A DNA stretch of 64,000 nt from Paracoccaceae bacterium (GTDB lineage: Bacteria; Pseudomonadota; Alphaproteobacteria; Rhodobacterales; Rhodobacteraceae). The stretch is taken from contig JAWPMR010000001.1 of the NCBI GenBank assembly GCA_033344815.1, positions 4,202,136 to 4,266,135 of the forward strand, written 5' to 3'. Positions 618 to 48,774 of this stretch are shown one piece after another (position 1 is the first letter of the stretch; each line of letters begins with the position of its first letter). The position numbers and the translations under genes were made by a program. Below the pieces are notes generated by a model, which ran no database searches, was not told where the DNA came from, and saw nothing but the letters and a program-made list of their open reading frames with translations.

Positions 618-1286
618 ATGGACCTCTATCCACCAGTCAAAAAGCTGTTGGAGGGTCAGGGCTACGAGGTCAAAGCGGAGGTTGGTGCCGCGGATGTTGT
701 TGCCATCCGAGGTTCTGAAGACCCGGTTGTTATTGAGTTGAAGCTGTCCCCCTCGCTTGCAGTATTTCATCAATGTGTTGAGCGATTGGCCGTTACAGAT
801 GCTGTTTACATGGCGTTTGTTCATCAACCCGGCAAACGGGCGCAGAAATCGCGCAAGCAGGCGATTGCCATGGCGCGCAGGTTGGGGATCGGGGTCATGA
901 CCGTCCGCCTGAAGGATGGGCATGTTGAGGTGCATTGCGATCCGGGTCCTTACGCGCCGCGTAAATCGAACAGGCGCAAGGCAGCGATGATCCGCGAATT
1001 TGCACGGCGCACGGGAGATCCGAATGCCGGAGGGCAGACGCGTTTGGGTCTGGTGACCTCTTATCGGCAGGATGCGCTGAGATGCGCAGCACATCTGGCA
1101 GAACATGGTGCGAGTAAAGGAGCGACCGTCGCAAAAGCAGCGGGCGTTCCGACAGCGACGCGGCTGATGGCCGACAATCATTATGGCTGGTTCGTGCGGG
1201 CGTCCAAAGGTGTTTACACCCTGACTGATGCGGGGCGCGAGGGTCTGGTGCATTGGGCTTACAGTTGGGAAGAAGACCCCCTTTGA
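618..1286 (+). CDS. DUF2161 family, PD-(D/E)XK-like phosphodiesterase
   Basis: A 222-residue protein of the DUF2161 family, predicted to have a PD-(D/E)XK nuclease fold. The core is visible as Asp26 in AADVVAI followed by Glu40-Leu-Lys42 in VVIELK, the spacing expected for a metal-dependent phosphodiesterase. The C-terminal part from about residue 115 is basic and helical, with a winged-helix-like TLTDAGREGL near the end. The ATG at 618 follows a purine-rich AAGAGAG. It stands alone upstream of groES and ends about 50 bp before the groESL promoter. No substrate is known for the family. Confidence 0.8.
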   Translation: MDLYPPVKKLLEGQGYEVKAEVGAADVVAIRGSEDPVVIELKLSPSLAVFHQCVERLAVTDAVYMAFVHQPGKRAQKSRKQAIAMARRLGIGVMTVRLKDGHVEVHCDPGPYAPRKSNRRKAAMIREFARRTGDPNAGGQTRLGLVTSYRQDALRCAAHLAEHGASKGATVAKAAGVPTATRLMADNHYGWFVRASKGVYTLTDAGREGLVHWAYSWEEDPL

Positions 1287-1337
1287 TCGCACGGTCAGGG
1301 AGACTCAAAACTCTTGAAATTTTCGCAAATGGGGCTG

Positions 1338-1366
1338 TTGACACGGTCGCGGGTGATGCCTAATTA
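1338..1366 (+). promoter_or_regulatory. groESL sigma70-type promoter
   Basis: TTGACA (1338-1343) and TAATTA (1361-1366) are separated by exactly 17 bp, an almost ideal housekeeping promoter. It lies directly upstream of the CIRCE operator, so transcription would start at or inside the inverted repeat. That is the usual geometry for HrcA repression of groESL. Confidence 0.8.
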
Positions 1367-1373
1367 AACCTCG

Positions 1374-1400
1374 TTAGCACTCAGGTAGAGCGAGTGATAA
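1374..1400 (+). promoter_or_regulatory. CIRCE operator (HrcA binding site)
   Basis: The inverted repeat TTAGCACTC-N9-GAGTGATAA matches the CIRCE consensus (TTAGCACTC-N9-GAGTGCTAA) at 17 of 18 arm positions; the single mismatch is C to A in the right arm. It sits 7 bp downstream of the -10 box and about 70 bp upstream of groES. This predicts heat-inducible control by HrcA, which is encoded outside the window. Confidence 0.93.
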
Positions 1401-1469
1401 CGGTCCCGACGCGTAATTCTGCGTTTTGGATCAATTGGGAGAAACTTTGAGCCTTAAGGAGCTGCAAAG

Positions 1470-1757
1470 ATGGCATTGAAACCGCTTCATGACCGCGTGC
1501 TGGTACGCCGCACGGAAAGCGAAGAAAAAACAGCTGGTGGATTGATCATCCCCGATAGCGCAAAAGAGAAACCTTCCGAAGGTGAAGTTGTTTCCTGTGG
1601 CGAAGGCGCACGCAAGGACAGCGGTGAGCTGATCGAAATGGCTGTAAAAGCCGGTGACAAGATCCTGTTCGGCAAATGGTCCGGTACAGAAGTTACGCTC
1701 GATGGCGAAGAACTGCTGATGATGAAGGAAAGCGACATCATGGGGATCATCGAGTAA
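1470..1757 (+). CDS. groES: Co-chaperonin GroES
   Basis: A 95-residue GroES, the heptameric lid of the GroEL folding chamber in the cytoplasm. The N-terminal [14 protein letters not shown] is the family signature, the mobile loop is seen around residues 17-32 ([14 protein letters not shown]), and the C-terminal half contains [14 protein letters not shown]. Length is standard. The ATG at 1470 is preceded by AAGGAG (1456-1461). It is the first gene of the CIRCE-controlled groES-groEL operon, with an 89-bp spacer to groEL that can form a small hairpin (GGTGG/CCACC near 1778-1796). Confidence 0.98.
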
Positions 1758-1822
1758 GCCATCCGGCCGACTTGATGGTGGCCTGAAAGCCCACCCTACG
1801 ACATATCGCTGAACTTAACTGA

Positions 1823-3490
<1,668 letters not shown>

Positions 3491-3512
3491 ATCACCACCA
3501 TTGTTATGGATT

Positions 3513-3540
3513 GGGCTCGCCAAATGGCGGGCCCTTTTTC
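3513..3540 (+). terminator. Rho-independent terminator of groESL
   Basis: GGGCTCGCC (3513-3521) pairs with GGCGGGCCC (3527-3535) across a short AT-rich loop, with one G-T pair, followed by TTTTTC. It lies 22 bp after the groEL stop codon. Confidence 0.9.
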
Positions 3541-3693
3541 GTTAAAAGAGACGGTTTTGACAAAGCCGGGTCCCAGCGGTTTCTGAACGCCGGGGGGTGC
3601 GCCCGACTCCATCTCAGAATGCAGCGCATTAACTGTGTATTCAGTAGGCGGTGTTAGCGTGCTTTTATCGCTCATACCAAGGACTGCACGCCC

Positions 3694-4428
3694 ATGAATC
3701 GCCCTGTTTCAATGCATGAAGCCGAAACACCTTTCTCCGCCAGTGACGTTTCCGCTGAATCTAATGAAATTGAGGATTTCATCTACTTGATCAGTCATGA
3801 CGTACGAAATTCGGTGCGGGCCCTCATCGAATTGCCGCAATGGATTGCGGAAGATCTTGCTGAAGCTGGTGTGAAAGTCGAAGGCCGTGTCGCCGAAAAC
3901 ATAGCATTAATGAACAGACATACGGGGCGACTGGATCGTATGTTGGTGGATCTTCTGACCTTTTCGCGGGTCGGGCGCATGCAACCCGTCGAGCAAGTCG
4001 ACCTGAACGCGGCGTTGGACGAAGTTCTGGAGGAGATGAGAATTCCAACGGGTTTCAAGATCCAGCGCGAATTTGATTGCGATGATGTCATCATGGGCGA
4101 ACGAGATGTCCTCACTCTCTTCACAGCGTTGATTTCGAACTCGATCAAACATCATGACCGATCTGACGGTGAGATCAGTATATCCTGTAACCGCGATGGC
4201 AAATATCTCGTTGTTTCGGTGCGCGATAACGGACCGGGTATTGCTGCGGGATACCACAACCGAGTCTTCGGAGTCATGACAACGTTGAAACCTCGCGATG
4301 AAGTGGAGGGCAGCGGCATGGGCCTTGCGATCGCAAGAAAGATTGCAGAAACGTACAATGGCGACGCGAAAGTCATCGAGAATGAGGACGGTCGTGGCGT
4401 GACGCTGCAGGTGCGGTTGATCGCCTGA
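3694..4428 (+). CDS. Soluble sensor-less histidine kinase
   Basis: A 244-residue two-component histidine kinase consisting only of the transmitter. The dimerisation/phosphoacceptor region has ISHDVRNSVRAL near residue 33 (phosphoacceptor His in SHD). The ATPase domain has the N-box SNSIKHH around residue 150, the G1 box DNGPGI around residue 178 and the G2 box GSGMGLAIARKI around residue 209. There is no membrane segment and no PAS, GAF or HAMP domain. The H-box and LDRMLVDLLTFSRVGR resemble phytochrome-type kinases with their sensor removed. No response regulator is adjacent, so partner and signal are unknown. It may be activated by another protein or may act as a phosphotransfer component. 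Confidence 0.85.
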   Translation: MNRPVSMHEAETPFSASDVSAESNEIEDFIYLISHDVRNSVRALIELPQWIAEDLAEAGVKVEGRVAENIALMNRHTGRLDRMLVDLLTFSRVGRMQPVEQVDLNAALDEVLEEMRIPTGFKIQREFDCDDVIMGERDVLTLFTALISNSIKHHDRSDGEISISCNRDGKYLVVSVRDNGPGIAAGYHNRVFGVMTTLKPRDEVEGSGMGLAIARKIAETYNGDAKVIENEDGRGVTLQVRLIA

Positions 4429-34605: not shown

Positions 34606-36000
34606 GTGCCGCCCGACGTCGATATGGAATTTGAAAAACTGCTTGCCAATAAGGCGACTTTTGCCCCGGAAGTGTTGCTGACGCCGGGAGGCGTCAGGCA
34701 TGACTGGGCGATCAGATTTGAAGGTGGTCGGATTACGGGCGTGGGTCCGGCATCTGATTTTCAAGATGCAGTGGCACTTCCGGGTCGCGCCATCATTCCA
34801 GGCATGGTTGATGCGCATACCCATGTGGGTCAGATATTCGGCAAAGCCTTAATCGGAGGAGAACCTGCACAAATCTGGCGGCGAATCTGGCACCCGATGG
34901 AACGCGACATGGACGAAGAGCAGTCTTATCTTTCTGCCAAATGGGCGTTTTGGGAAGCGATGCGGGGCGGATTCACCAAGGTTGTGAACTATGGTCTAAA
35001 TGGGTTGGACAAGAACGCCGGCGTCCACCGCGCTGCGCAGGAAACAGGCGTTCGACTGGTGTCGGCCTGCGGGCTTGACGAGTTTTCAGGAGACATTGGT
35101 ACAGGTCACGGCAACAACAGTTGGGCCGAAATTGAAGATGTCATTCTCTCCCATATCGAGGACTGCGCCCGTTTTGCGATGATTGAACCTTCTGTGTGTT
35201 GCAGCTCGTTCATGGGTAATACGCCTGAGACACTGACACAGCTATCAGAGCTATGCGCGTCACAGGGCATACTATTGCAGATCCATTCCAATGAACATTT
35301 TCCTGAAGTGCATGAATGCATCTTGCGCCACAAGCAGCGCCCCACTGAACTATTGCACAAGCATCAGGTCCTGGGGCCGCATGTGATTTTGCATCATACG
35401 ACCTTGGTTTCGGAACCGGAAATCGAACTGATTGTCGAAACTGACACTGCGACTAGCTACAACCCGCTTGCCAGCGTTTGGAAGGGCAACGCCGTCGCAC
35501 CCGCCTTGCGGTTTGCCCAAAGAGGCATCCGGTTCGGCATCGGCTCGGATACGACCTCCGCGGATGGGTTCAAGAACCTGATGGCCGCCGAGGCTTGTCA
35601 GCGAATTGCTACTGGGCTGCCTGTGGCCGACTTTTCTTGTGGCGCCGCGTGGACGTGGGTCGATGCGGCAACAACTCAAGGAGCGCGCGCGACAGGAGGC
35701 ACGGGCGACCACGGGCCGCTGGCGGAGGGTATGGCCGCTGATTTTCTTGTTCTCGACATGATGCATCCTGAATGCTTGCCCAGCCACGACTTCGAGTGGG
35801 AACTCGTACGCTATTACAATCGCGATCAGGTTGATGCTGTTGTGGTGGGCGGACGACTCTGCATGGCCCATGGGAAACCTGTAGGCTGGGATGTCGAAGA
35901 GCTGCGCCAAGCTGGTCTTGCCGCAGCTCAAACAATCACCTCGGTGCCCGATATCCAAAGGTGCCACGGCCCCTCGACCCTTTACAGACCAAAGGACTGA
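34606..36000 (+). CDS. Metal-dependent amidohydrolase (TrzN/AtzA-like deaminase superfamily)
   Basis: A 464-residue amidohydrolase-superfamily member of the chlorohydrolase/deaminase branch. Metal ligands are His71 and His73 in VDAHTHVG, His227 in QIHSNEHF (with acidic Glu230), His263/His264 in LHHTTL and Asp315 in GIGSDTTSADG. Relatives deaminate or dechlorinate s-triazines, pterins, guanine or adenosine derivatives. The frame opens with GTG 34606, 16 bp after AGGAGG; ATG 34624 (MEFEK) is an alternative. Position between the importer and the ring-opening hydrolase (gap 3 bp) suggests it makes the hydroxylated ring that the next enzyme opens. The exact substrate cannot be told. Confidence 0.85.
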   Translation: MPPDVDMEFEKLLANKATFAPEVLLTPGGVRHDWAIRFEGGRITGVGPASDFQDAVALPGRAIIPGMVDAHTHVGQIFGKALIGGEPAQIWRRIWHPMERDMDEEQSYLSAKWAFWEAMRGGFTKVVNYGLNGLDKNAGVHRAAQETGVRLVSACGLDEFSGDIGTGHGNNSWAEIEDVILSHIEDCARFAMIEPSVCCSSFMGNTPETLTQLSELCASQGILLQIHSNEHFPEVHECILRHKQRPTELLHKHQVLGPHVILHHTTLVSEPEIELIVETDTATSYNPLASVWKGNAVAPALRFAQRGIRFGIGSDTTSADGFKNLMAAEACQRIATGLPVADFSCGAAWTWVDAATTQGARATGGTGDHGPLAEGMAADFLVLDMMHPECLPSHDFEWELVRYYNRDQVDAVVVGGRLCMAHGKPVGWDVEELRQAGLAAAQTITSVPDIQRCHGPSTLYRPKD

Positions 36001-36003
36001 CCC

Positions 36004-37044
36004 ATGCCACGCGCGCGCATCCACGTCATACCAACCAGAGGACCGGACGATGTGTCCGGTCTTCAGGCTCTTATCGCTGACGGGGAGTTACAACCCGACA
36101 AACTGATTGCGATCCTCGGCAAGACCGAAGGCAATGGTTGCGTCAACGACTTCACCCGTGCCTTTGCGGTTTCGGCTTTCAAGCGTACACTTGGGGAGGC
36201 GGCAGAAGGTGTGAGCATGGTGATGTCGGGTGGCACCGAAGGCGCATTGTCGCCCCATATCGTCACGTTTGAAGTATTGGAAGTGACAACGACAGATCAC
36301 GCAATGGCCATCGGAGCGAAGATATCGCCAGATATCGCACCACATCAGATTGGGACGTTTGCGCAAATTGAATGCGTGGCGGCCGCCGTCAGGGAGGCGA
36401 TCGAGGCGGCCGATATCAGCACGCCTGAGGATGTGCATTTTGTCCAGGTCAAATGTCCCCTTTTGACGGCTGATCGTGTCGCAAGATCCGCTGAGCCGGT
36501 GGTCACTGCTGATACATTGAAATCGATGGGTCAGTCGCGCGGGGCCTCGGCGCTTGGAGTGGCTCTTGCTTTGGGTGAGATCGACGAGAAGACCGCACAA
36601 ACAACACGGATCGGCCACGATACGACGGTCTGGTCCGGACGCGCCAGCACCTCTGCTGGTGTGGAATTAATGGGGCATGAAATCCTGGTTCTCGGTATGA
36701 GCAATAAGTGGTCTGGCCCGCTTGTTGTAGATCATGCGATCATGAACGACGCGATTGACAGCCTGTCGGTCTCAGAGGCGCTGGCGCGACTTGGTGTTGG
36801 CGTGGATGCGAGGCTTCGGGCAGTGTTTGCCAAAGCTGAAGCCTCCACATCAGGGCGCGTGCGCGGTCACCGCCACACCATGTTGGATGACAGTGACATC
36901 TCCTCCACGCGTCACGCGCGTGCTTTTGTAGGCGGCGTTTTGGCCGGGTTGACGGGGCGCACCGACCTGTTCATTTCGGGCGGAGCTGAACACCAGGGAC
37001 CGGATGGGGGTGGCCCAGTCGCGGTGATTGCGGAGCGATTTTAG
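36004..37044 (+). CDS. Ring-opening amidohydrolase (cyanuric acid hydrolase/barbiturase family)
   Basis: A 346-residue member of the AtzD/TrzD/barbiturase family, which opens cyanuric acid or barbiturate rings by hydrolysis. The threefold pseudo-repeat with three Lys-Ser pairs is visible: Lys40 (ILGKTEGNG) and Ser75 (VMSGGTEG), Lys150 (VQVKCPLL) and Ser215/217 (GRASTSAG), Lys277 (FAKAEAS) and Ser325 (ISGGAEHQGPDGGGP). The C-terminal GAEHQGP metal motif is present. Length is slightly shorter than AtzD (about 363). Biuret or ureidomalonate-processing genes are not nearby, so the route is incomplete here. Whether the natural substrate is cyanuric acid, barbiturate or another ring cannot be decided from motifs alone. 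Confidence 0.92.
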   Translation: MPRARIHVIPTRGPDDVSGLQALIADGELQPDKLIAILGKTEGNGCVNDFTRAFAVSAFKRTLGEAAEGVSMVMSGGTEGALSPHIVTFEVLEVTTTDHAMAIGAKISPDIAPHQIGTFAQIECVAAAVREAIEAADISTPEDVHFVQVKCPLLTADRVARSAEPVVTADTLKSMGQSRGASALGVALALGEIDEKTAQTTRIGHDTTVWSGRASTSAGVELMGHEILVLGMSNKWSGPLVVDHAIMNDAIDSLSVSEALARLGVGVDARLRAVFAKAEASTSGRVRGHRHTMLDDSDISSTRHARAFVGGVLAGLTGRTDLFISGGAEHQGPDGGGPVAVIAERF

Positions 37045-37927: not shown

Positions 37928-38944
37928 TCAACCACATGCCAGACCATCTGTATCAAATGCGTGCAGGTGATCTTTTGCAAATGACAGGCTTACAGCATCG
38001 CCGGGTTTGTGGGAGGTCGATCCGTTGACGCGCACTGTGACTTGTCCGGCCGCGCCACAGGACACAATAACAAATGTGTCTGCGCCCAAGTATTCCAGCA
38101 CGTCCACAACCCCGTCAATCTGGCCCGTTGAAAGCGCACCAAGAGTGATGTGTTCGGGGCGAATGCCAAGCGAGACGGCCCCGCGCGGTACCTCGATGTC
38201 CTTGACCGCATCTGCAGAAAACACGTTCATCCGCGGAGAACCGATAAACTGTGCGACAAACAGGTTCGCCGGGTTTTCGTACAACTCGCGCGGGGTGCCA
38301 ACCTGTGCAATCTTGCCAAACTCCAGCACGACGATGCGGTCGGCCAAAGTCATCGCTTCGACCTGATCATGGGTGACATAGATCATCGTCGCCTGCAGCG
38401 TTTGGTGCAGTTTCGCGATTTCATAACGCATCTCGACGCGCAGGGCCGCATCTAGATTTGAAAGAGGCTCGTCAAAGAGAAACGCCGTCGGATCACGCAC
38501 AATCGACCGACCGATGGCGACGCGTTGGCGCTGGCCACCTGAAAGATCCTTGGGCCGGCGATCCATGTAATCTTCCAGTTTGAGAGCTTTCGCCGCTTCG
38601 TTTACCTTTGTGTCGATTTTCGATTTGGGCAGGCCCGCAGATTTCAGCGGAAAGCCCACATTGTCGCGCACCGACATATGTGGATAAAGCGCGTAGGATT
38701 GAAAGACCATCGCCAGTCCGCGCTTGCTGGGAGGCTCCGCTGTGGCATCCCGTTCACCAATTATAATTTGCCCGCGTGACGTTTCTTCAAGGCCTGCAAT
38801 CATGCGTAACAAAGTGGATTTACCACATCCTGAGGGACCCACGAAAATCACGAATTCGCCCTCACTTATGTCGAGGTCCACGCCCTTGATAACTTGGATG
38901 TCGCCGAACCACTTTTCGACAGCTTTCAGAGAAATTGATGACAT
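37928..38944 (-). CDS. Sugar ABC transporter ATP-binding protein (UgpC/MsmK/MalK type)
   Basis: A 338-residue MalK-family ATPase. Walker A is [17 protein letters not shown]-loop [12 protein letters not shown], signature [14 protein letters not shown], Walker [15 protein letters not shown] and the switch [12 protein letters not shown]-terminal TOBE-like regulatory domain starts around residue 235 ([12 protein letters not shown]). The start is ATG 38944, overlapping the preceding stop by one base (TGATG); the longer frame into the neighbour is not credible. It is the last gene of a LacI-controlled six-gene sugar operon. Confidence 0.95.
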
Positions 38945-40200
38945 CAGGCAGCCCCTCGAACTTGTTCCGCATCGCGCCCGGCCCAGGTCAGCCAGATAGC
39001 AGCAGTCCAGGTGAAATCGGCGCCCCCGCAAGCCGTCGCATCATGCGGGTCAAAGTATTCTGCAAACCCGTTTTTCGCGATGGCATCGGCGGTTTCCCGT
39101 CGCAGTCTTTCATCAAGGTCTGGACGACCCATTTCACGAAACCCGATTGCAATTAACGCATTCAGGAACGGCCATGATGGCCCGCGCCAGTAGCGCCGTG
39201 CGTCAAAAGCGGGGTTGTGGGGATCGGCGGAAGGGATGCCATAAGTCACGGCGTCCCACACCCGCATCAACTGCGTATCCAATGTGGGGTTGCCCGCGCC
39301 TGCAACATAGGCCAGCAATGCCCCTGACCCCAAGATCCCTGCAAACTGCTGAGTGCGCAGGTTCTTTGCGTCATACGCGCCAAGGTCGGGGTTCCAGATT
39401 TGGGGCAGGGCAGCGCGCAGGCTGTCGGCCCATCGCGAGATCTCTTGCGTGTCTTCTCCCAAGATCTCACCTAGTGCAATCAGATCTTCATGCGCGCGCA
39501 TCAGGATAAAGGTGATTCCAGGGTCCGCCATGAGAAACGGGCCTTCTGCGACGATCTTTTCTTGATCCCAACGAACGCTGCCACCGAACTGTACCATCGC
39601 GATATATCGGTCGTATTGTTCTTTTTGCGGTCTCATCGAGGGGTCTACATGCCCAGTGTCTCGCCGTGTGTAAGATCCCACATTCGACCCGTCGACACCT
39701 GCCATGCCAATGTCCCAGTCCGGGCAGTTGTCGCGCCCGCTTTCCCACGGATGGATGATCGCGGCAGGGCCATGAACGCAGCGCACTTCGTGCCACCAAC
39801 GATGCCACGCAACCAGTTTTGGATAAATTGCTGCCAGCCTTTCAAGGCCAGCCTTTTTGTCCATTTCCAGGACGAGCCTTACCATTGTCGCGGCAACAGG
39901 CGGTTGCGAGATACCTGAAGTTGCAGGGCTTTGCCCGGTGCACCAGACGTCGGGGCCAGGGAAATAACTGGGGTCGGGTTCATGAAAAATGATGTGTGGA
40001 ACCATTCCGCATGCCCATTGGCTTGCAAACAACGTATCAAATTCATCCCACGCGCGCGGGACGTCAAAGGTCGCAAATCCCCAGGCCGCAAAGGCGCTGT
40101 CCCAATTCCATTGATAGGGATAGAGACCGTGAGTTGGCAGCGTATAACCGCCCTTGTCGTTCTGGCGCAAAATCTGGCGCGCCTTTTCATCGAGATCCAT
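38944..40200 (-). CDS. GH63-like alpha-glycosidase (glucosyl/mannosylglycerate hydrolase type)
   Basis: A 418-residue (alpha/alpha)6-barrel glycosidase resembling GH63 mannosylglycerate/glucosylglycerate hydrolases and related trehalase-like enzymes. Visible motifs are [15 protein letters not shown] near residue 27, [16 protein letters not shown] near 147 with an acidic catalytic candidate, [14 protein letters not shown] near 344 and a C-terminal [11 protein letters not shown]. There is no signal peptide, so it would act in the cytoplasm on the imported substrate. It is encoded between the permease and ATPase genes of a sugar importer. The compatible solutes glucosylglycerate or mannosylglycerate are candidate substrates. 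Confidence 0.78.
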
Positions 40201-40202
40201 GA

Positions 40203-41411
40203 TTATCCTTTTACTGACCCGGCGGTCAGGCCTTTTGTCATGAAACGTTCCAATCCCAAGAAAAGCGCCATGATTGGAACGGTCGCAATGACGGAGCCCG
40301 CCATCAGGTGTTGTCGTGGAATTTCCGAAGAATTGAGAGATGCGATGCCGCGGGTCAGCGTGAATTTCGCGGGGTCGTCAAGGAGCATGAAAGCAAGGAG
40401 GAACTCATTCCAGGCGATCATGAAGACGTAGAGCGAGACTGAGGCCAAAGCAGGCAGAGAGAGGGGCAGAGTGATTTTCCAGATGACCGCCAGCCGTGAC
40501 AACCCGTCCATCAAACCTGCTTCTTCAACTTCAGCGGGCAAGCCGCGAAAATATCCTTGCAGCATGTAGAGCGCCACAGGGATCGTCGTGACAGGATAGA
40601 TCATCACTATGCCCCAGAACGAATTGCGCAAACCTGTCATTGAAAATGCAATATAGATCGGCAGTGCGAGCACAATCATAGGCACCATATATATCAGCAG
40701 AATTGAGCGTGAGAATGCAGCACGTCCCTGGAACCGCAGCCGTGCCACGGCATAGGCGCCGGGTATCGCAAAGGCCAGCGTGATGAAAACCGTCAGCACT
40801 GAGATGAAGAATGAATTGAAAAGATAGGTGCCGAAATTGAACTGGGTAAACAGTTCATTATAAGATCGGAACAGCTCAGTTCCCTTTTCCAGATCAATCG
40901 AGAAATCGAGCGGATTCTGCATGAGCTCCGATTGATTTTTGAAGCTCGTCATGACCATTACATAGAAGGGAATCAGAACAATCGCGGAAAAGAAGATGTA
41001 GCCAAACCCCGTCAGAAAACGGATCACGGCGCCCTCGAATTCATGTCGTGTCAGAGCGCCCGGAACCACTTCGTCCAAAATGGGAGCTAACGAAAGCGCA
41101 AAAGCGAGGCCAAGCGTTGCCGCGCCAAGAACACGCGAGACAAGACTCGCGTCGCTTCCGGTGAGCATCGGCCCGACGCCGGCAAGAACCAGGACGCCGA
41201 CGGCTGTTGCAACAGCAAGCTGAAGGCTGCGAATTTTTCCGGCGAAAACAAATACAACACCCGCTACAGCCCCCCAGAGCATAGACAATAACAGGTTCGG
41301 GCGAAAAGGGTCACCGGTCGCAAAGGACATGCCAACTGCAACTGTCACGGAGAGGACAACCATCCACAAGGCACCCAGAACAGGTCCGGTTATATACCCC
41401 TGTCGGATCAC
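40203..41411 (-). CDS. Sugar ABC permease, MalG type, with extended N-terminus
   Basis: A 402-residue carbohydrate permease subunit. The C-terminal 275 residues are a standard MalG-type permease with the EAA coupling loop in VEEAGLMDGLSRLAVIWKITLPLSLPAL. The first about 125 residues are extra and contain roughly four additional hydrophobic segments (for example LGALWMVVLSVTVAVGMSF and LQLAVATAVGVLVLAGVGPML). MalG proteins usually have about 280-300 residues. The start is GTG 41411, preceded by AGGAGGAAGGG and overlapping the upstream stop by 4 bp (GTGA). The longer frame to 41468 runs into malF. Confidence 0.88.
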   Translation of the reverse strand: MIRQGYITGPVLGALWMVVLSVTVAVGMSFATGDPFRPNLLLSMLWGAVAGVVFVFAGKIRSLQLAVATAVGVLVLAGVGPMLTGSDASLVSRVLGAATLGLAFALSLAPILDEVVPGALTRHEFEGAVIRFLTGFGYIFFSAIVLIPFYVMVMTSFKNQSELMQNPLDFSIDLEKGTELFRSYNELFTQFNFGTYLFNSFFISVLTVFITLAFAIPGAYAVARLRFQGRAAFSRSILLIYMVPMIVLALPIYIAFSMTGLRNSFWGIVMIYPVTTIPVALYMLQGYFRGLPAEVEEAGLMDGLSRLAVIWKITLPLSLPALASVSLYVFMIAWNEFLLAFMLLDDPAKFTLTRGIASLNSSEIPRQHLMAGSVIATVPIMALFLGLERFMTKGLTAGSVKG

Positions 41412-42652
41412 AGCCCTTCCTCCTGACTGATGTACTTCAGAAAGAAGATGGAAAAGGTCAGCAGACACCCGAAAATGACAACTGCCACCGCGGCCCCCGC
41501 ACCGATATTGGAAATTGCAAACGCCTGCTCATAGACATTCACGGTCAATGTGCGCGTGCCTGCATTCCCGCCGGTGAGCAGGAAGATGTCGTCGAATTTA
41601 TTGAATGTCCAAATAAAACGGAGCAAAAACAAGACGCTGAGGATGCCGAGCAATTGGGGTACGCTGAGGTACCAGAATTGCTGAAAAGGCGACGCGCCAT
41701 CCATGTCCGCTGCTTCATACATGTCCGTGTCGATGCTCTGCATGCGCGCGAGGATAAAGAGGAAGGATAGGGGGAAATAGCGCCAGATCTCGAAGATCGT
41801 GACCATGATCAGAGCCAGCGGCCGTTCCCCAAAAAAGTTGATGGCTTGAGACGTCACCCCCATTTGCAACAAAAGAGCATTGGCAGACCCCGAAAACGGG
41901 TCGAACAGAATAAGCCATGCAAAGGCGACCGCGATCACCGGTGCGACATATGGGAACAGATAGAGCCCTCGCAGAACGCCCTGTCCCTTGAAAGATTTGT
42001 TGAGCAGAAGGGCCGCAAAAAGCCCCACGAGCAAGGCACCGATTGTGCCAAAAACCGTATAGAACAGTGTGACCCAGAGAACTTCGAAAAACTCGTCGCC
42101 ATTGAAAATTCTTGAGAAGTTTTCCAGCGTGAACGTGTTGTTTGTCAGCACACTGGAAGATACGCCGGTTGTTATGGCCGCGCTGTCTTGAGGGCGCAAT
42201 GCGTTATCAAGATAGGTTTGTTCGACCTTGACCGGAATGGTCAATGTGTCTCTGGTGCCGGGGTCCCAGTCGCCAAGATCACAGGCCAACGCCCGGCCCG
42301 ACAGGTCGCAGCGCGCATCGAGGTCCTGAACAATCAGGCCGTCGGGGATGATGTCAGAGAACGTAACGCCAGTGATCGGTTGCTCTTGCGAAGAATTGCG
42401 CAAACGGTAACGGATCGTCGGCATGTCTCCCACGGCATCGGCGTCCCCGCGTATGTCCTCGCGCAAAACGACTTCTGGCGCGCGCAGGTCGCCAAGCTCC
42501 ACCGGCTTGAACGAGATCCAGAAGATTGCAAGCAATGGCAGGATAACGACCAATGCAACGGCGGCGATGGTTGGAAACAGGAGCCCCCACGCCAGGCGCG
42601 CTTCGCGTTTGGCTAAAGGTCCGGTTCCGACGGGGGGTCGTAGCTCTGCCAT
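41408..42652 (-). CDS. Sugar ABC permease, MalF type, with DUF11-like periplasmic insert
   Basis: A 414-residue permease partner of the MalG-type subunit. The first membrane helix is at residues 20-46. A large periplasmic loop (about 48-188) follows, and then the usual permease core with EAA loop YEAADMDGASPFQQFWYLSVPQL. Inside the loop, residues 78-145 look like a DUF11/immunoglobulin-like beta domain: TIRYRLRNSS, ITGVTFSDIIPDGL, then a cysteine pair (Cys115, Cys124) and WDPGTRDTLTIPVKVE. E. coli MalF also has an enlarged loop, of different sequence. The start is ATG 42652 with AGGAG upstream. It is separated from the binding-protein gene by a hairpin. Confidence 0.88.
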   Translation of the reverse strand: MAELRPPVGTGPLAKREARLAWGLLFPTIAAVALVVILPLLAIFWISFKPVELGDLRAPEVVLREDIRGDADAVGDMPTIRYRLRNSSQEQPITGVTFSDIIPDGLIVQDLDARCDLSGRALACDLGDWDPGTRDTLTIPVKVEQTYLDNALRPQDSAAITTGVSSSVLTNNTFTLENFSRIFNGDEFFEVLWVTLFYTVFGTIGALLVGLFAALLLNKSFKGQGVLRGLYLFPYVAPVIAVAFAWLILFDPFSGSANALLLQMGVTSQAINFFGERPLALIMVTIFEIWRYFPLSFLFILARMQSIDTDMYEAADMDGASPFQQFWYLSVPQLLGILSVLFLLRFIWTFNKFDDIFLLTGGNAGTRTLTVNVYEQAFAISNIGAGAAVAVVIFGCLLTFSIFFLKYISQEEGL

Positions 42653-42734: not shown

Positions 42735-44087
42735 TCACTGCACCGCCGCGATTGCGCTGTTCAATTCGGCAACTGTTGCCGCCGCATCGCGCTCACCGTC
42801 AATGAATTCCCTTACCAGACGGTTGATCACCTGACTGTTGATGATTGCGGAGGCCTCGGCCAATTTGCCGTCAGCAACGCCCCAGCGCTGTGCCACGTCC
42901 AATCCGCCAACGATCTCCTCGATCATCGCGGCTTCATAAAGATCCCCCAGCGGAGCTTTGCGATCAACACCAACATCAAGCGTCGCCCATAGATCCGCAA
43001 ATTCAGTGGGGCTATCAGCCGTGCCGCGCCGGACCGGGAATTTGCCTTCCGGTGCGATGGCCAACGTTGACCCGTAGCCTTCGTTCATCGAGTACTGGAC
43101 GAATTCCATCGCAGCATCCGTGGACGCGTCAGAGGTGATGCCGAAGTAACGCACGTCACCCCATGCCGCACCGTCCGGATTTGAGGGGCCGGCGAAGTTC
43201 GTCACGATACCGGTGGCTGCCGCCAGATCGCCTGAGGTCGGATCATCGTTGATTGTGGGCGGCGCGCTGTCCCGCAGACCAGCCAACTCGTCGAGGATAA
43301 AAGGCGACCAGATGATCATCGCGGCATTGCCGCTGAAATAGAGCGTGCGTGACTGATCCCAATAGAGGTCGCCTGGGGGGGAGGCTTCGGCGATGGCCTT
43401 GTAAAACTCCAGCACTTCGATCGTGGCAGCTTCGTCAAGTGACTGAACGCCATCGGGTCCGACCGGTGACACGCCATTTGCGAGGAAAACATGTTCCAGA
43501 ACCTGGCTCATGAAGTTCTCATCGATCTTGGTGGCGGCGACAAAACCATACATTTCCGGCGGGTTGTGTAGCGCCTCAACAGCGGCCAGAACGTTGGCAT
43601 AGGAATTGGGCGGCTCAAGGCCTTTCTCTGAAAAGAGATCCGCGCGATAGACCAGCATCTGCGTCCACCCGTCTACGGGTACCGAAGCGTATCCATCCGG
43701 CGTAGCAGCCATTTTTAGTGCACCAGGGGCAAAGGTATCAGCCCCAAGTGCCTCGATCACATCCGTTGCCGCGTCGATATCCAGAATTCCCGCGTCGGCC
43801 CAAGGCGCTGCATACTGCAACGTATGATAGATGACATCAGGCAAGTCGCCTGCCGCAAACGCCGCAGTTGCGCGCGTTCCGAGGTCGTTTTCGGACACCG
43901 GGATGACATCTACTGTATGGCCGGACGCGGCCGCGAATTCAGCCGCCATCGCTTCCTGGCGCGCAAGGCGCTCAGGCTGCTCTTCCGTCGTCCAAAACCG
44001 TAATTCTTCTGCGGACAAAGCTGAAGCGGATACCGCCAGTGCCACCAGAGCACTTGTCTGCATCGCTGCTTTTAGGTTTAGTTTCAT
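42735..44087 (-). CDS. Sugar ABC substrate-binding protein
   Basis: A 450-residue periplasmic binding protein of the extracellular solute-binding family 1. The signal peptide is MKLNLKAAMQTSALVALAVSASALSA. The mature part begins EELRFWTTEEQPERLARQEAMAAEFAA, with VDVIPVSENDLGTRATAAFAAGDLPDVIY typical of sugar-binding proteins. Its gene starts within the LacI stop (4-bp ATGA overlap). With MalF/MalG-type permeases, ATPase and a GH63-like hydrolase it forms a glycoside importer; the ligand is probably a glycosyl-glycerate or oligosaccharide, by inference. Confidence 0.92.
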   Translation of the reverse strand: MKLNLKAAMQTSALVALAVSASALSAEELRFWTTEEQPERLARQEAMAAEFAAASGHTVDVIPVSENDLGTRATAAFAAGDLPDVIYHTLQYAAPWADAGILDIDAATDVIEALGADTFAPGALKMAATPDGYASVPVDGWTQMLVYRADLFSEKGLEPPNSYANVLAAVEALHNPPEMYGFVAATKIDENFMSQVLEHVFLANGVSPVGPDGVQSLDEAATIEVLEFYKAIAEASPPGDLYWDQSRTLYFSGNAAMIIWSPFILDELAGLRDSAPPTINDDPTSGDLAAATGIVTNFAGPSNPDGAAWGDVRYFGITSDASTDAAMEFVQYSMNEGYGSTLAIAPEGKFPVRRGTADSPTEFADLWATLDVGVDRKAPLGDLYEAAMIEEIVGGLDVAQRWGVADGKLAEASAIINSQVINRLVREFIDGERDAAATVAELNSAIAAVQ

Positions 44088-45187
44088 CGTCTTTCTCCCA
44101 TTTTGACTTCAATCGAATTCTGAACCTTGGTGTTGATACGGCCGGTAGAGCCACGCTGCAAAAAAGTCGCTGCAACAGTTTCCCGCAGCGCTTCTGGCGG
44201 CTCTCCTCCTATGCGTCGGATTAAAAGGCCCGCGAGCCTGGCACCTGCATCGCGACTGCTGACAGAAAAGGTTGTCAGCGGTGGCCGCGCATGTGCGCCC
44301 TCCTGGATACCATCATAAGCGATGACCGAAATATCCGTGCCGATCCGCAAATGACGGGCGGATGCGGCACTGTAAACGCCCAAGGCGACGCGGTCCACGG
44401 CGCAGACAATAGCGGTCGGTGGATTAGCAAGATCCAACAGCTTGGCGCCGGCGCGGGTACCCTCCTCAAGCGTGACAGCGTTCTCCAGGAGCAATGCCGG
44501 ATCAATCTCAAGCTTTGCGGCAGCCATCCCGGTTACAAAACCTGCCCGGCGCAGTTTCGCGTAATTATAGATCGCGCCACCATTGATAAAGCCGATCCGG
44601 CGATGCCCGAGCTCAGCCAAATGCAGAACTGCGTCATGCATGGCATCCTCACCTCGTACGTCAAACCACGCGCATCCGGTTGCGTCATCTTGGCGTCCAT
44701 AAAGCACAAAAGGAACATCCGCTTTGCGAAACATCTCTACGCGCGCGTCGCACACCCTCGCTCTGGGAAGGATAAAGCCATCTGCTTTTCTGTCACGCAG
44801 CAAATTGCGAAAGGTTTCAATCAAGTGCGAGTCGTTATCTGCAGATGCAACAGTCAAGGTGTAACCCTCGACACTCGCCCCCGCAGAGACACCGGCAAGA
44901 AATTCGGCCAGAAAAGGTCTTTGTGCGTCGTGATCAGATAATTGCAACACAAGCCCGAGTGATCGTGTTCGGCCGGTTTTGATCGCCTGCGCGTGACTGA
45001 GGGGCTGGTAGCCTAGTTTTTCGGCCATTCGCTCGACGCGCAATCGGGTTGCTTCAGAGATATCGGGATAGGCGTTCATTGCTCGCGACACCGTAGACTT
45101 TGTCAAGCCGAGCGCTTCAGCCATGTCACTGATGGTGACTCGCATGGCCGCGCGATCACTCGAAATAGATGCGGTGTTTGCAGCCAA
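44084..45187 (-). CDS. LacI family transcriptional repressor
   Basis: A LacI/GalR regulator of about 367 residues. The DNA-binding helix-turn-helix VTISDMAEALGLTKSTVSRAMNAYPDISEATR is near the N-terminus and the periplasmic-binding-like effector domain follows, from RTRSLGLVLQLSDHDAQRPF. Three starts are possible: GTG 45208, TTG 45187 and ATG 45145. TTG 45187 is preferred because GGGAGAAG lies 5 bp upstream. ATG 45145 lacks a ribosome site but gives the shortest pre-HTH leader. It is the first gene of the sugar operon and probably controls itself and the operon. Confidence 0.9.
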   Translation of the reverse strand: MAANTASISSDRAAMRVTISDMAEALGLTKSTVSRAMNAYPDISEATRLRVERMAEKLGYQPLSHAQAIKTGRTRSLGLVLQLSDHDAQRPFLAEFLAGVSAGASVEGYTLTVASADNDSHLIETFRNLLRDRKADGFILPRARVCDARVEMFRKADVPFVLYGRQDDATGCAWFDVRGEDAMHDAVLHLAELGHRRIGFINGGAIYNYAKLRRAGFVTGMAAAKLEIDPALLLENAVTLEEGTRAGAKLLDLANPPTAIVCAVDRVALGVYSAASARHLRIGTDISVIAYDGIQEGAHARPPLTTFSVSSRDAGARLAGLLIRRIGGEPPEALRETVAATFLQRGSTGRINTKVQNSIEVKMGERR

Positions 45188-45217
45188 ATTTCTTCTCCCG
45201 TGCTTCACGTTGATCTA

Positions 45218-46451: not shown

Positions 46452-47174
46452 TTATGCGGAACGGCGGCCATACCGTTTCATGCCGAACAGGCCACCAAGA
46501 CCGGCCAGCAACATCCACGCCGCTGCAGGCAATGGTACAGGGCTCGTGTTGTTTGTGCCTGTGCTCGAAGTCATCAGGAAATCATTCGTGCCGCTGGTTG
46601 AGCCATCGGACAAGCAGGTCGTGGAAGCGCCGGCCGAAGCGGAAAGGAATGGTCCACACGCCCCCGCGTCCATGATCCAATTGCGGAAAACAGGACTGGA
46701 GTTGTCACCTGACAGGCGATGCCCATCGAATTTGAAAAGTGCAGCATAGCCGCTGTTGTTTTGCTTCCCGGAAAAATCGTATTGGAACGTACCTGCGGTA
46801 TCCCACAAGGCGCCCGTGCCGCCTGTTGCGGTAAAGCCGCCATCGCTGTCAAACACAATACCCGTCATCGTGTATACCACGTTGACAAGGCTGCCCAGCA
46901 AGTTCAGGCCGCCACCAGTTGCAGAGCCGTTGATGTTGAGAGCCATCGTACCTGACAAGGAGGCTGTGTTTGCAACGTCGTCAGTGGTCAGTGTCAGCGC
47001 ACCACCGGTTGCGGAGTAGTGCTGGTTGAGATCATCAACCCGCAGACCGTACTGTTGGGGCGGTGTATTTGCCCCGTCTGCATGATCAAACATGTCGTAG
47101 TCCAAAACTGCAGCATGTGCGCCTCCAGTGGCGGTCATCATGGTAACAGCGGCCATGGCTAAAAAGCGTTTCAT
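46452..47174 (-). CDS. VPLPA-CTERM sorting domain protein
   Basis: A 240-residue exported protein with signal peptide MKRFLAMAAVTMMTATGGAHAA and a textbook C-terminal tail: SPVPLPAA, a hydrophobic helix AWMLLAGLGGLFGM, then KRYGRRSA. This is the VPLPA-CTERM signal recognised by the XrtD-type exosortase, which would cleave and anchor the protein at the surface. The body (residues 23-205) is rich in Gly, Thr and Ser with predicted beta strands (GGALTLTTDD, SLSGTMALNINGSATGG) and one Cys pair (ACGPFLSASAGASTTC). The start ATG 47174 has AAAAGGAC upstream. The function is unknown; it may belong to matrix or surface structure. Confidence 0.88.
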   Translation of the reverse strand: MKRFLAMAAVTMMTATGGAHAAVLDYDMFDHADGANTPPQQYGLRVDDLNQHYSATGGALTLTTDDVANTASLSGTMALNINGSATGGGLNLLGSLVNVVYTMTGIVFDSDGGFTATGGTGALWDTAGTFQYDFSGKQNNSGYAALFKFDGHRLSGDNSSPVFRNWIMDAGACGPFLSASAGASTTCLSDGSTSGTNDFLMTSSTGTNNTSPVPLPAAAWMLLAGLGGLFGMKRYGRRSA

Positions 47175-48774
47175 TTTATCTTGTCCTTTTAATAGAAGTT
47201 GTCCGTGTTCAAACGGATCGGCGTTGACGCGTAAAACTGCGCGAAAGTTTGGAATGGCACCCGTCCAACGACACCTCTTTGCCTGCAAAGCTTTTCATGC
47301 GCCTCTGAGAATGTCAGGGGTCACTAGCCAAGCGGCTATCGGATTGAAAGGCACAAGTGTCGCCGAATTTATTTGCGGCATCTTTGTCGTGACATTCATT
47401 TCCGGTAATGAGGCTAAAGTAATGACGTTTTCGGTTTTCATAGATGTTTAACAAATTGTTGACGTGGGCTCAGAAAACCCCAAGCGGACAGGCTTGGTCA
47501 ACTTTAACGTCGAAAATTAGCCGCAAGTTAGGATACTTTCAACTTCGGGTTTTAGTTGTTCAACTCCAGATTAAAAAACGTGTCTATCACTCAACCCAAA
47601 AATCACCTGGTAAACACGCTTATGGCATCACTGAATATCGTTGAAATGCTGATTCGATGACCTGAGTTGCAATTCTCGTGATTCGACGCAGACTTCTATA
47701 CGCGAAGCCGATCCAAATAATCGTCACGACGCCCCATTCACTTCGAGTACGCGCACGCCACAAATTAACAATTATGTGCTAGGCGTATGCTGGTTGGAAT
47801 TTGTCTGAGCTTGGGCGCTATCGCCTATTCACACAGCCGCAAAAATCATGTTGTAGAGACCAACGGCACCGCAGTTTGGAGGCGCAAGAAGAGCTTCGTC
47901 ACAATTTCTTTTAATACGCTTAAGCGTCATAACATTTGCCAAAATGGCCGGCAAAAAAAAGCAGATTTACGTGGGATATTAATAGTAATCCGTAGTTCGC
48001 AATCATGACTTTTTGCCCCAGCAGCGAACAGAAGGATGAGTTGTTTCACAACGGGCAATTGATGAATTTTGGCAATTTCACAGAAGGTGTGCAGTTTGTT
48101 CCAAACCGGCGACGTTAACGTCGAACTCAAGAGGTAGCAGGTCAACTGATGTTACGAATGTATCTGGACTGGCTTTATTCTTTCCTGAAGTTTGTCTGTG
48201 CAACGCGTTTCCAGTTTGCTGCGACAGCTTTCAGAAAAAAATTATGTCAAGAGTTTGATCATCGTCATGGAATTACCGGTGGATTTTTCAATTCCTTCAC
48301 CACCCTTTTAAAGTGTGCATAAAACGAGGGGCATCTATCAGCCTGCCCCGCAAAAAAGGGGCGCATTCTACCTATTACAGAAAATGACCTAATAGCGATC
48401 AACGTGATGGGTGCGATCCCCGTTAAGCCTGTTGAAATGGGCGCATTCGATTGCTGCTTGGTTGATGTATGCGAAACGCGATGTGCGGTCTGTCCGGGCG
48501 AACTTCCATCAAAAACGTGCCAAACGCGCCGCGGAAAACCTGTTGATCCGTAGACGCGCATTTTAGACTGCGGTTTGGCGTCCATCACGCCATTGCTCTA
48601 GCCAAGCCTGAGGATACTAAACGGTTATCGCTTGCTGAAACGGTCGGGCAGTATCATCGCCTTCGGCACGGTTTTTCAAGCTACGCAGTGCCCAACGTTG
48701 ATTTGCGTTACTCCAAGCTTTTCAGGAATGGAGCTTCGTCAGACCTGTCCGACGTTGATTCCATTTTCGAAAAC
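47175..48774. other. AT-rich gene-poor stretch
   Basis: About 1.6 kb with no supported gene, visibly richer in A and T between about 47440 and 48270 than the surrounding genes. The promoter of the VPLPA-CTERM gene should lie at the left end. Open frames of 60-107 codons (for example 48265-48588 minus and 47444-47644 plus) have no recognisable motifs. A pair of competing hairpins at 48328-48362 is described separately. The region could be decayed foreign DNA. Confidence 0.5.
48328..48362. other. Two mutually exclusive hairpins
   Basis: GGGGCA (48328-48333) can pair with TGCCCC (48344-48349), or the same TGCCCC-containing strand can pair with GGGGC (48358-48362) over GCAAAAAA. The shared arm means only one can form at a time, as in attenuators. 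No gene is seen immediately downstream on either strand that would be controlled, so the meaning is unknown. Confidence 0.3.

Follow-up and report, generated by a model that had tools for sequence, protein, structure and literature searches.

A DUF11 domain at the P2 position of a MalF-type permease in a putative importer of glucosylglycerate or mannosylglycerate

Among domains located in permease loops, the periplasmic P2 domain of Escherichia coli MalF is the known example of one that communicates with a binding protein. P2 is itself Ig-like, and E. coli MalF also has two extra N-terminal helices. We describe here a permease, from a marine bacterium, that carries a DUF11 domain in the place of P2. 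With an unrelated domain at this place and a sister system from which it is absent, nature offers an independent experiment on which features of such a domain matter. It also gives DUF11, a family still called unknown, a possible role inside transport. According to PMC3150292, a segment of P2 directly contacts MalE in the MalFGK2E complex, and reference titles in that paper describe an interaction of MalE with P2 throughout the catalytic cycle. Among the titles listed in our literature searches, none dealt with ABC permeases that contain DUF11 or Ig-like domains.

The permease is encoded on the minus strand of the window, the 64,000-nucleotide stretch of DNA that we analyzed (positions 41411 to 42652 of the window; 414 aa, with M1 at 42652). 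It matches the Pfam family PF00528 (BPD_transp_1) with 56.8 bits (cut-off, 26.4) and reaches 79.5 bits with the maltose permease MalF equivalog model NF008232, short of the cut-off of 392. A sequence-only reading of this DNA had placed a DUF11-like segment at 42070 to 42440, in the large periplasmic loop that follows the first transmembrane helix. We confirmed the location. In an alignment of 60 orthologues, from which the genome's own two further copies of the record (L001 and L003) were left out, and by loop comparison, the insert comprises residues 51 to 174 (124 residues; 42131 to 42502, minus strand). It lies within the first periplasmic loop, between the first transmembrane helix and the core NF motif. 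The DUF11 (PF01345) match, found with Pfam, in a genome search and by profile-profile comparison, spans residues 73 to 173 (42134 to 42436, minus strand). The interval first proposed covers this match and runs slightly into the core that follows.

We found that the loop alone matches DUF11 with 26.7 bits, above the gathering cut-off of 24.6, whereas the whole permease scores 23.8 bits, slightly under it. In a six-frame search with DUF11, the permease (26.6 bits) was the sole match above the cut-off in the genome. When 49 inserts were scanned singly, 39 matched DUF11 at an E value of ≤0.01 and the other 10 did not; thus, the DUF11 match of the insert is not due to chance. The DUF7933 family was matched by 15 of the same 49. 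Of the 60 orthologues, 49 are included in alignments A1 and A2; alignment A3 holds 100 sequences. A profile of 100 inserts aligned with DUF11 domains from other proteins with an hhalign probability of 96.9% (E value, 1.4e-10). This independent DUF11 set was drawn by PF01345 and has 19 rows; 7 of 26 were left out because they were empty, contained a stop or had ≤75 residues. A second DUF11 set gave 97.6%, but its rows are not independent because they were found with the insert profile. The TIGR01451 (B_ant_repeat) scores were 15.8 bits for the loop and 14.5 bits for the whole permease, below the cut-off of 24, and the insert profile matched no solved chain by sequence. A viral library gave one match at an E value of ≤0.001, an uncharacterized Tupanvirus protein, and a Tupanvirus DUF11 protein ranked fifth. 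A defence family library gave no hits to the permease.

We compared the loop lengths of MalF-type permeases. From the first core helix to the NF motif, the loop has 127 residues here versus 11 to 20 in 16 short-loop permeases (the value of 11, from L072, comes from a frame without the first helix). In P2-bearing MalFs, the same loop has 169 residues in E. coli and 162 and 157 in two Rhodobacterales. The insert therefore occupies the place of P2. The sequence-only reading had also suggested that the insert replaces an unrelated P2 loop, and this held. The insert and P2 profiles aligned with an hhalign probability of 0.9% (the P2 alignment holds 23 of 31 P2 loci), and P2 versus DUF11 gave 0.3%; together these values reject homology of the insert with P2 at the sequence level. 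MalF_P2 (PF14785) was not matched in the permease loop among Pfam hits at an E value of ≤10, nor anywhere in the same genome. Since the insert and P2 have no detectable sequence relationship, function cannot be transferred between them by homology. All of these data taken together leave very little doubt that the P2 position is occupied here by a true DUF11 domain. In the phylum sample, 31 of 398 genomes have MalF_P2 itself, and four of the 31 belong to the family of our genome. In two genomes (G025 and G026), a P2-type MalF and a DUF11-type permease coexist as separate genes.

The proposal of a beta-sandwich was borne out by AlphaFold2, which predicted one in the whole permease with block-mean pLDDT values of 86 to 91 across residues 61 to 150. 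The predicted sandwich has eight strands, two of which are only 3 to 4 residues long. The membrane part of the whole-permease model was poor (mean pLDDT, 60.4), and we therefore used the insert alone for fold comparison (mean pLDDT, 79.5). With Foldseek and VIA-align, the insert matched Ig-like and related sandwiches, including cellulose-binding modules, a CLIPPER adhesin domain, TRAP subunits, integrins and mu-adaptins (VIA Z scores of up to 10.1). The models thus predict that the DUF11 domain is Ig-like. Because this sandwich fold is common, the fold matches are uninformative on function.

The Cys pair noticed in the first reading proved to be highly conserved. Cys115 (42308 to 42310, minus strand) and Cys124 (42281 to 42283, minus strand) are kept in all 60 aligned orthologues, our own sequence included, and each of 128 distinct inserts has exactly two Cys residues. 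Judged by this conservation, the pair is probably disulfide bonded. Across the 128 inserts, Arg57 is invariant. The motif RYRLRNSS (residues 81 to 88; 42389 to 42412, minus strand) is also strongly conserved: Asn86 is found in 128/128 inserts, Arg83 in 127 (with one Lys), Ser88 in 127 and Arg85 in 119. We infer that RYRLRNSS is a candidate working face of the insert.

We then surveyed permeases with the same insert. Of 292 genomes belonging to the order, 76 have a full-length or near-full-length orthologue, and the other 216 gave no match. These matches are free of stops, which rules out an artefact of one genome or a frameshift. The distribution is patchy, with 5 of 9 genomes of the same genus lacking the cassette permease. 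In the phylum sample, the DUF11 permease was found in 16 of 398 genomes: 12 of the same family (our own genome included) and 4 more of the same class. Four further genomes of this sample matched through ordinary DUF11 proteins only. In the class sample, 8 of 289 genomes matched at an E value of ≤1e-80, and DUF11 itself was found at ≤1e-4 in 17 of 289. We tested 29 loci of this DUF11 search with a permease-core profile and found that, besides our own, the loci in G525 and G758 lie in permeases, which belong to the same DUF11-permease family. Carriers known by name include Enterovibrio calviensis, a Thiotrichales metagenome-assembled genome (MAG) and a Rhodospirillales MAG, although mislabelling or mis-binning is possible for these. 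E. calviensis DSM 14347, gammaproteobacterial by name, has the whole cassette, which reflects either horizontal transfer or a mislabelled record. The named loci are the best 80 of 507 confirmed relatives. With our own locus and 30 from other genomes, they make up the 111 loci used below, in which some species occur twice.

The first reading had left it open whether the domain docks the binding protein or a surface partner. The other DUF11 matches lie mostly in large open frames, several of them with repeated domains, and adhesin DUF11 domains might bind surface or envelope partners; the insert could do the same. However, the insert is a single domain of a permease whose gene, in 110 of the 111 loci, lies between those of the binding protein and MalG. 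Given that this permease resides in the cytoplasmic membrane, has only one such domain and is encoded in a solute-uptake operon, we regard a surface partner as very improbable.

To place these permeases, we built a core tree of 81 rows from which the insert columns had been removed. Its 52 DUF11 permeases fell on one side of a branch with SH-aLRT support of 100. The 12 P2 permeases also formed one group (100), and the short-loop permeases fell outside both; branch order among the short-loop rows is unsure because the branches there are long. The DUF11 permeases form one clade, which is mostly alphaproteobacterial, and among the permeases sampled the DUF11 insert was gained once.

The permease belongs to a cassette encoded on the minus strand. 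Upstream lie the solute-binding protein (42735 to 44087; PF01547, 69.1 bits), whose N terminus has no lipobox, and a LacI-family regulator (44084 to 45208; PF13377 and PF00356). Downstream lie a MalG-type permease (40203 to 41468; PF00528, 73.8 bits), whose open reading frame runs from a GTG and whose true start is probably further in, an MGH1-like glycoside hydrolase of the mannosyl-/glucosylglycerate type (38944 to 40200; PF22422, 394.3 bits) and a UgpC/MalK-type ATPase of uncertain start (37928 to 39031; NF008653, 452.8 bits against a cut-off of 432). The order binding protein, MalF and MalG is kept in 110 of 111 loci; the exception ends shortly after MalF, without MalG. Across the 111 loci, we matched the hydrolase in 102, the ATPase in 107 and LacI in 86. 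The 9 cassettes in which no hydrolase was matched include some on cut contigs. In the distant loci L252 to L259, similar neighbours were matched, except that no hydrolase was matched in L253 and L258 and no LacI in L254, and that L252 and L256 are short contigs with some genes missing. A lipobox-like string occurs in only 1 of the 111 binding proteins, which are therefore probably soluble. Beyond the cassette, a protein encoded at 46452 to 47288 (minus strand) ends in VPLPAAAWML followed by an R-rich tail, which resembles a VPLPA-type C-terminal sorting signal. On the other side, amidohydrolase-like and ring-opening amidohydrolase-like genes, as judged by eye, adjoin at 34606 to 37044 (plus strand).

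Which solute the cassette imports is suggested by its hydrolase. In the PDB, the nearest chain was that of Thermus entries 2z07 and 4wva to 4wvc (334 bits), followed by a mycobacterial enzyme (205 bits). We take 2z07/4wva to be Thermus mannosylglycerate hydrolase; the matched record is labelled only uncharacterized TTHA0978. With the glucosylglycerate hydrolase equivalog NF047898, the operon's hydrolase scored 325.5 bits, below the cut-off of 550, so its specificity may differ from that of glucosylglycerate hydrolase. In PMC6608630, Asp182 and Glu419 are given as catalytic and eleven further residues as substrate residues, conserved in characterised mannosylglycerate hydrolases. All 13 of these residues are present in the operon's hydrolase; twelve of them are invariant in 102 orthologous hydrolases, and the remaining one, a Trp, is kept in 101 of the 102. 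A glycerate kinase was found within 2 of 121 loci: in Maritalea, the cassette is followed by a gene with a glycerate kinase annotation (L261, 10764 to 12011), and in L123 the match lies inside a long frame (663 to 4193). Though rare, a glycerate kinase fits a sugar-glycerate substrate. Judging from these sequences, we consider it likely that the imported solute is glucosylglycerate or mannosylglycerate. The rarity of glycerate kinase, the hydrolase score below the equivalog cut-off and the 9 cassettes with no matched hydrolase weigh against this reading. The importer would bring in one or both of these compounds, and the operon's hydrolase would then split them into sugar and glycerate. This points to glucosylglycerate or mannosylglycerate uptake in many Rhodobacterales.

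Alternatively, the insert might itself bind the solute, or another carbohydrate, and hand it on at the transporter mouth, acting as a substrate relay. The Foldseek matches include cellulose- and chitin-binding modules (3ndy, with an E value of 1.6e-4 and a TM score of 0.56; 6qfs; and 2cwr), and the conserved Arg stripe could suit an anionic solute. However, many unrelated proteins match this sandwich. Moreover, the only aromatic residues at positions conserved in at least 70% of the 128 inserts are Tyr82 and Phe174, with no Trp, and a Tyr at the place of Tyr82 is also common in DUF11 rows. We therefore think that a relay role is improbable.

We found that the MalG-type permease has an addition of its own, an N-terminal extension with about four extra hydrophobic segments (41046 to 41399, minus strand), identified by profile search and from its sequence. 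Extensions of 113 to 129 residues are present in 108 of 110 loci. An alignment (A6) holds 36 of these 108 extensions. A profile of the extension matched 45 of 149 genomes of the order, once in each. Compared by eye, these 45 are the genomes of the 149 that have the DUF11 permease, and the positions that we compared adjoin it.

A protein search of plasmid records returned six records, the weakest of which was a permease of Nonomuraea gerenzanensis (46.4% identity over 49% of the query). Its locus encodes a binding protein (258.7 bits), a short-loop MalF of 323 aa and a MalG of 283 aa without the extension. A hydrolase lies a few kilobases off on the other strand and scores 295.3 bits with the glucosylglycerate hydrolase model (cut-off, 550). 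Isomerase/epimerase-like and dehydrogenase-like frames, as judged by eye, lie between the transporter and the hydrolase. In a second core tree, the Nonomuraea MalF was the sister of the DUF11 clade (100/98) and outside it (99/84), although the bootstrap is not fully settled and the placement is that of a single sequence on a long branch. This tree omits 11 rows that the first tree contained (those on long branches, a short row and our own duplicate) and 10 near-copies of DUF11 rows. Since the sister system has the same type of hydrolase but neither the insert nor the MalG extension, both additions look like later gains. If the sister placement is right, the pairing of transporter and hydrolase is older than both.

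We next compared how fast the parts of the cassette diverge. In 95 genomes, the mean identities were 0.84 for the permease core, 0.76 for the binding protein and 0.49 for the insert. In 30 maltose systems, they were 0.73 for the core, 0.60 for MalE and 0.41 for P2. The fast evolution of the insert relative to the core would suit a neutral passenger or spacer that is kept because it is harmless. In contrast to what a passenger would predict, the insert is retained in every one of the 60 orthologues, the Cys pair, Asn86 and Arg57 are found in 128/128 inserts, and the insert is kept even in a 1.0-Mb genome (G799; 79% complete). P2 also evolves at a similar relative rate. We conclude that a passenger is hardly credible.

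With the core held constant, the partial correlation between the insert and the binding protein was 0.30 (104 loci, from 111), and that between P2 and MalE was 0.39 (subsample range, 0.01 to 0.62; 30 of 31 maltose loci, L201 having no MalE match). In a test of seven modules (101 genomes with all modules, reduced to 95 by a 90% identity filter), the partial correlation of the insert with the ATPase was 0.38 and exceeded that with the binding protein (0.17; subsample range, 0.02 to 0.29). Thus, the co-divergence of the insert and binding protein is not specific. The value of 0.30 is close to that of the P2 control, but as a test of docking this comparison is weak and does not amount to proof.

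A different role would have the insert and the four-helix MalG extension act together as a structural or gating accessory that braces MalF against MalG, with no docking site involved. The co-occurrence of the insert and the extension in 45 of 149 genomes, matched by eye, speaks for such an accessory, as does the lack of both in the Nonomuraea sister system. However, insert and extension distances showed no partial correlation (-0.05). Furthermore, the hydrophobic extension is probably in the membrane and the insert in the periplasm, so direct contact between them would be limited. We consider this accessory role unlikely, though not negligibly so.

On balance, our analysis leans toward the insert being a P2-like docking module for the binding protein. 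The DUF11 domain would project from the permease into the periplasm and, as P2 does, would help to capture the soluble binding protein and bring it into the right orientation in the course of the transport cycle. The position of the insert, its P2-like rates, the binding proteins without a lipobox and the modest, unspecific co-divergence make docking plausible. Counting against it, the insert correlates better with the ATPase in the seven-module test, its conservation is far lower than that of the binding protein, and the 16 short-loop importers manage without such a domain.

More tentatively, there may have been two linked gains in the alphaproteobacterial line, one placing a surface-type DUF11 domain in the MalF loop that corresponds to P2, the other adding four membrane helices to MalG. 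Jointly, these could take the part that P2 and the extra MalF helices play in the maltose system, in which case a convergent docking apparatus would have arisen from unrelated parts; we hold this to be possible, with the balance somewhat against it. If it is true, the actinobacterial sister without the additions is a natural control.

Of the known systems, E. coli MalF shares with this permease a large periplasmic domain at the equivalent place, and P2 shows the same order of rates relative to the core and the binding protein. In contrast, P2 is longer than the insert and unrelated to it by sequence, and the two types of permease form separate clades in the core trees. The additional helices also differ in place, with about four on MalG here and those of the maltose system on MalF. 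The DUF11/TIGR01451 repeats of large surface proteins resemble the insert in that their Cys pair aligns with its own, they match the same Pfam family and they are predicted to be Ig-like. Unlike these repeats, the insert is a single copy inside a permease, and it reads RYRLRNSS where DUF11 rows read approximately YTLTVxNTG. The Thermus mannosylglycerate and mycobacterial glucosylglycerate hydrolases (GH63) are the nearest solved relatives of the operon's hydrolase, which has all 13 residues given in PMC6608630. In N. gerenzanensis, too, the genes for a binding protein, MalF and MalG are grouped, and one for a glucosylglycerate-hydrolase-like protein is close by. This system differs in that its MalF loop is short and has no DUF11 domain, its MalG is unextended and its binding protein has a lipobox-like start, as judged by eye.
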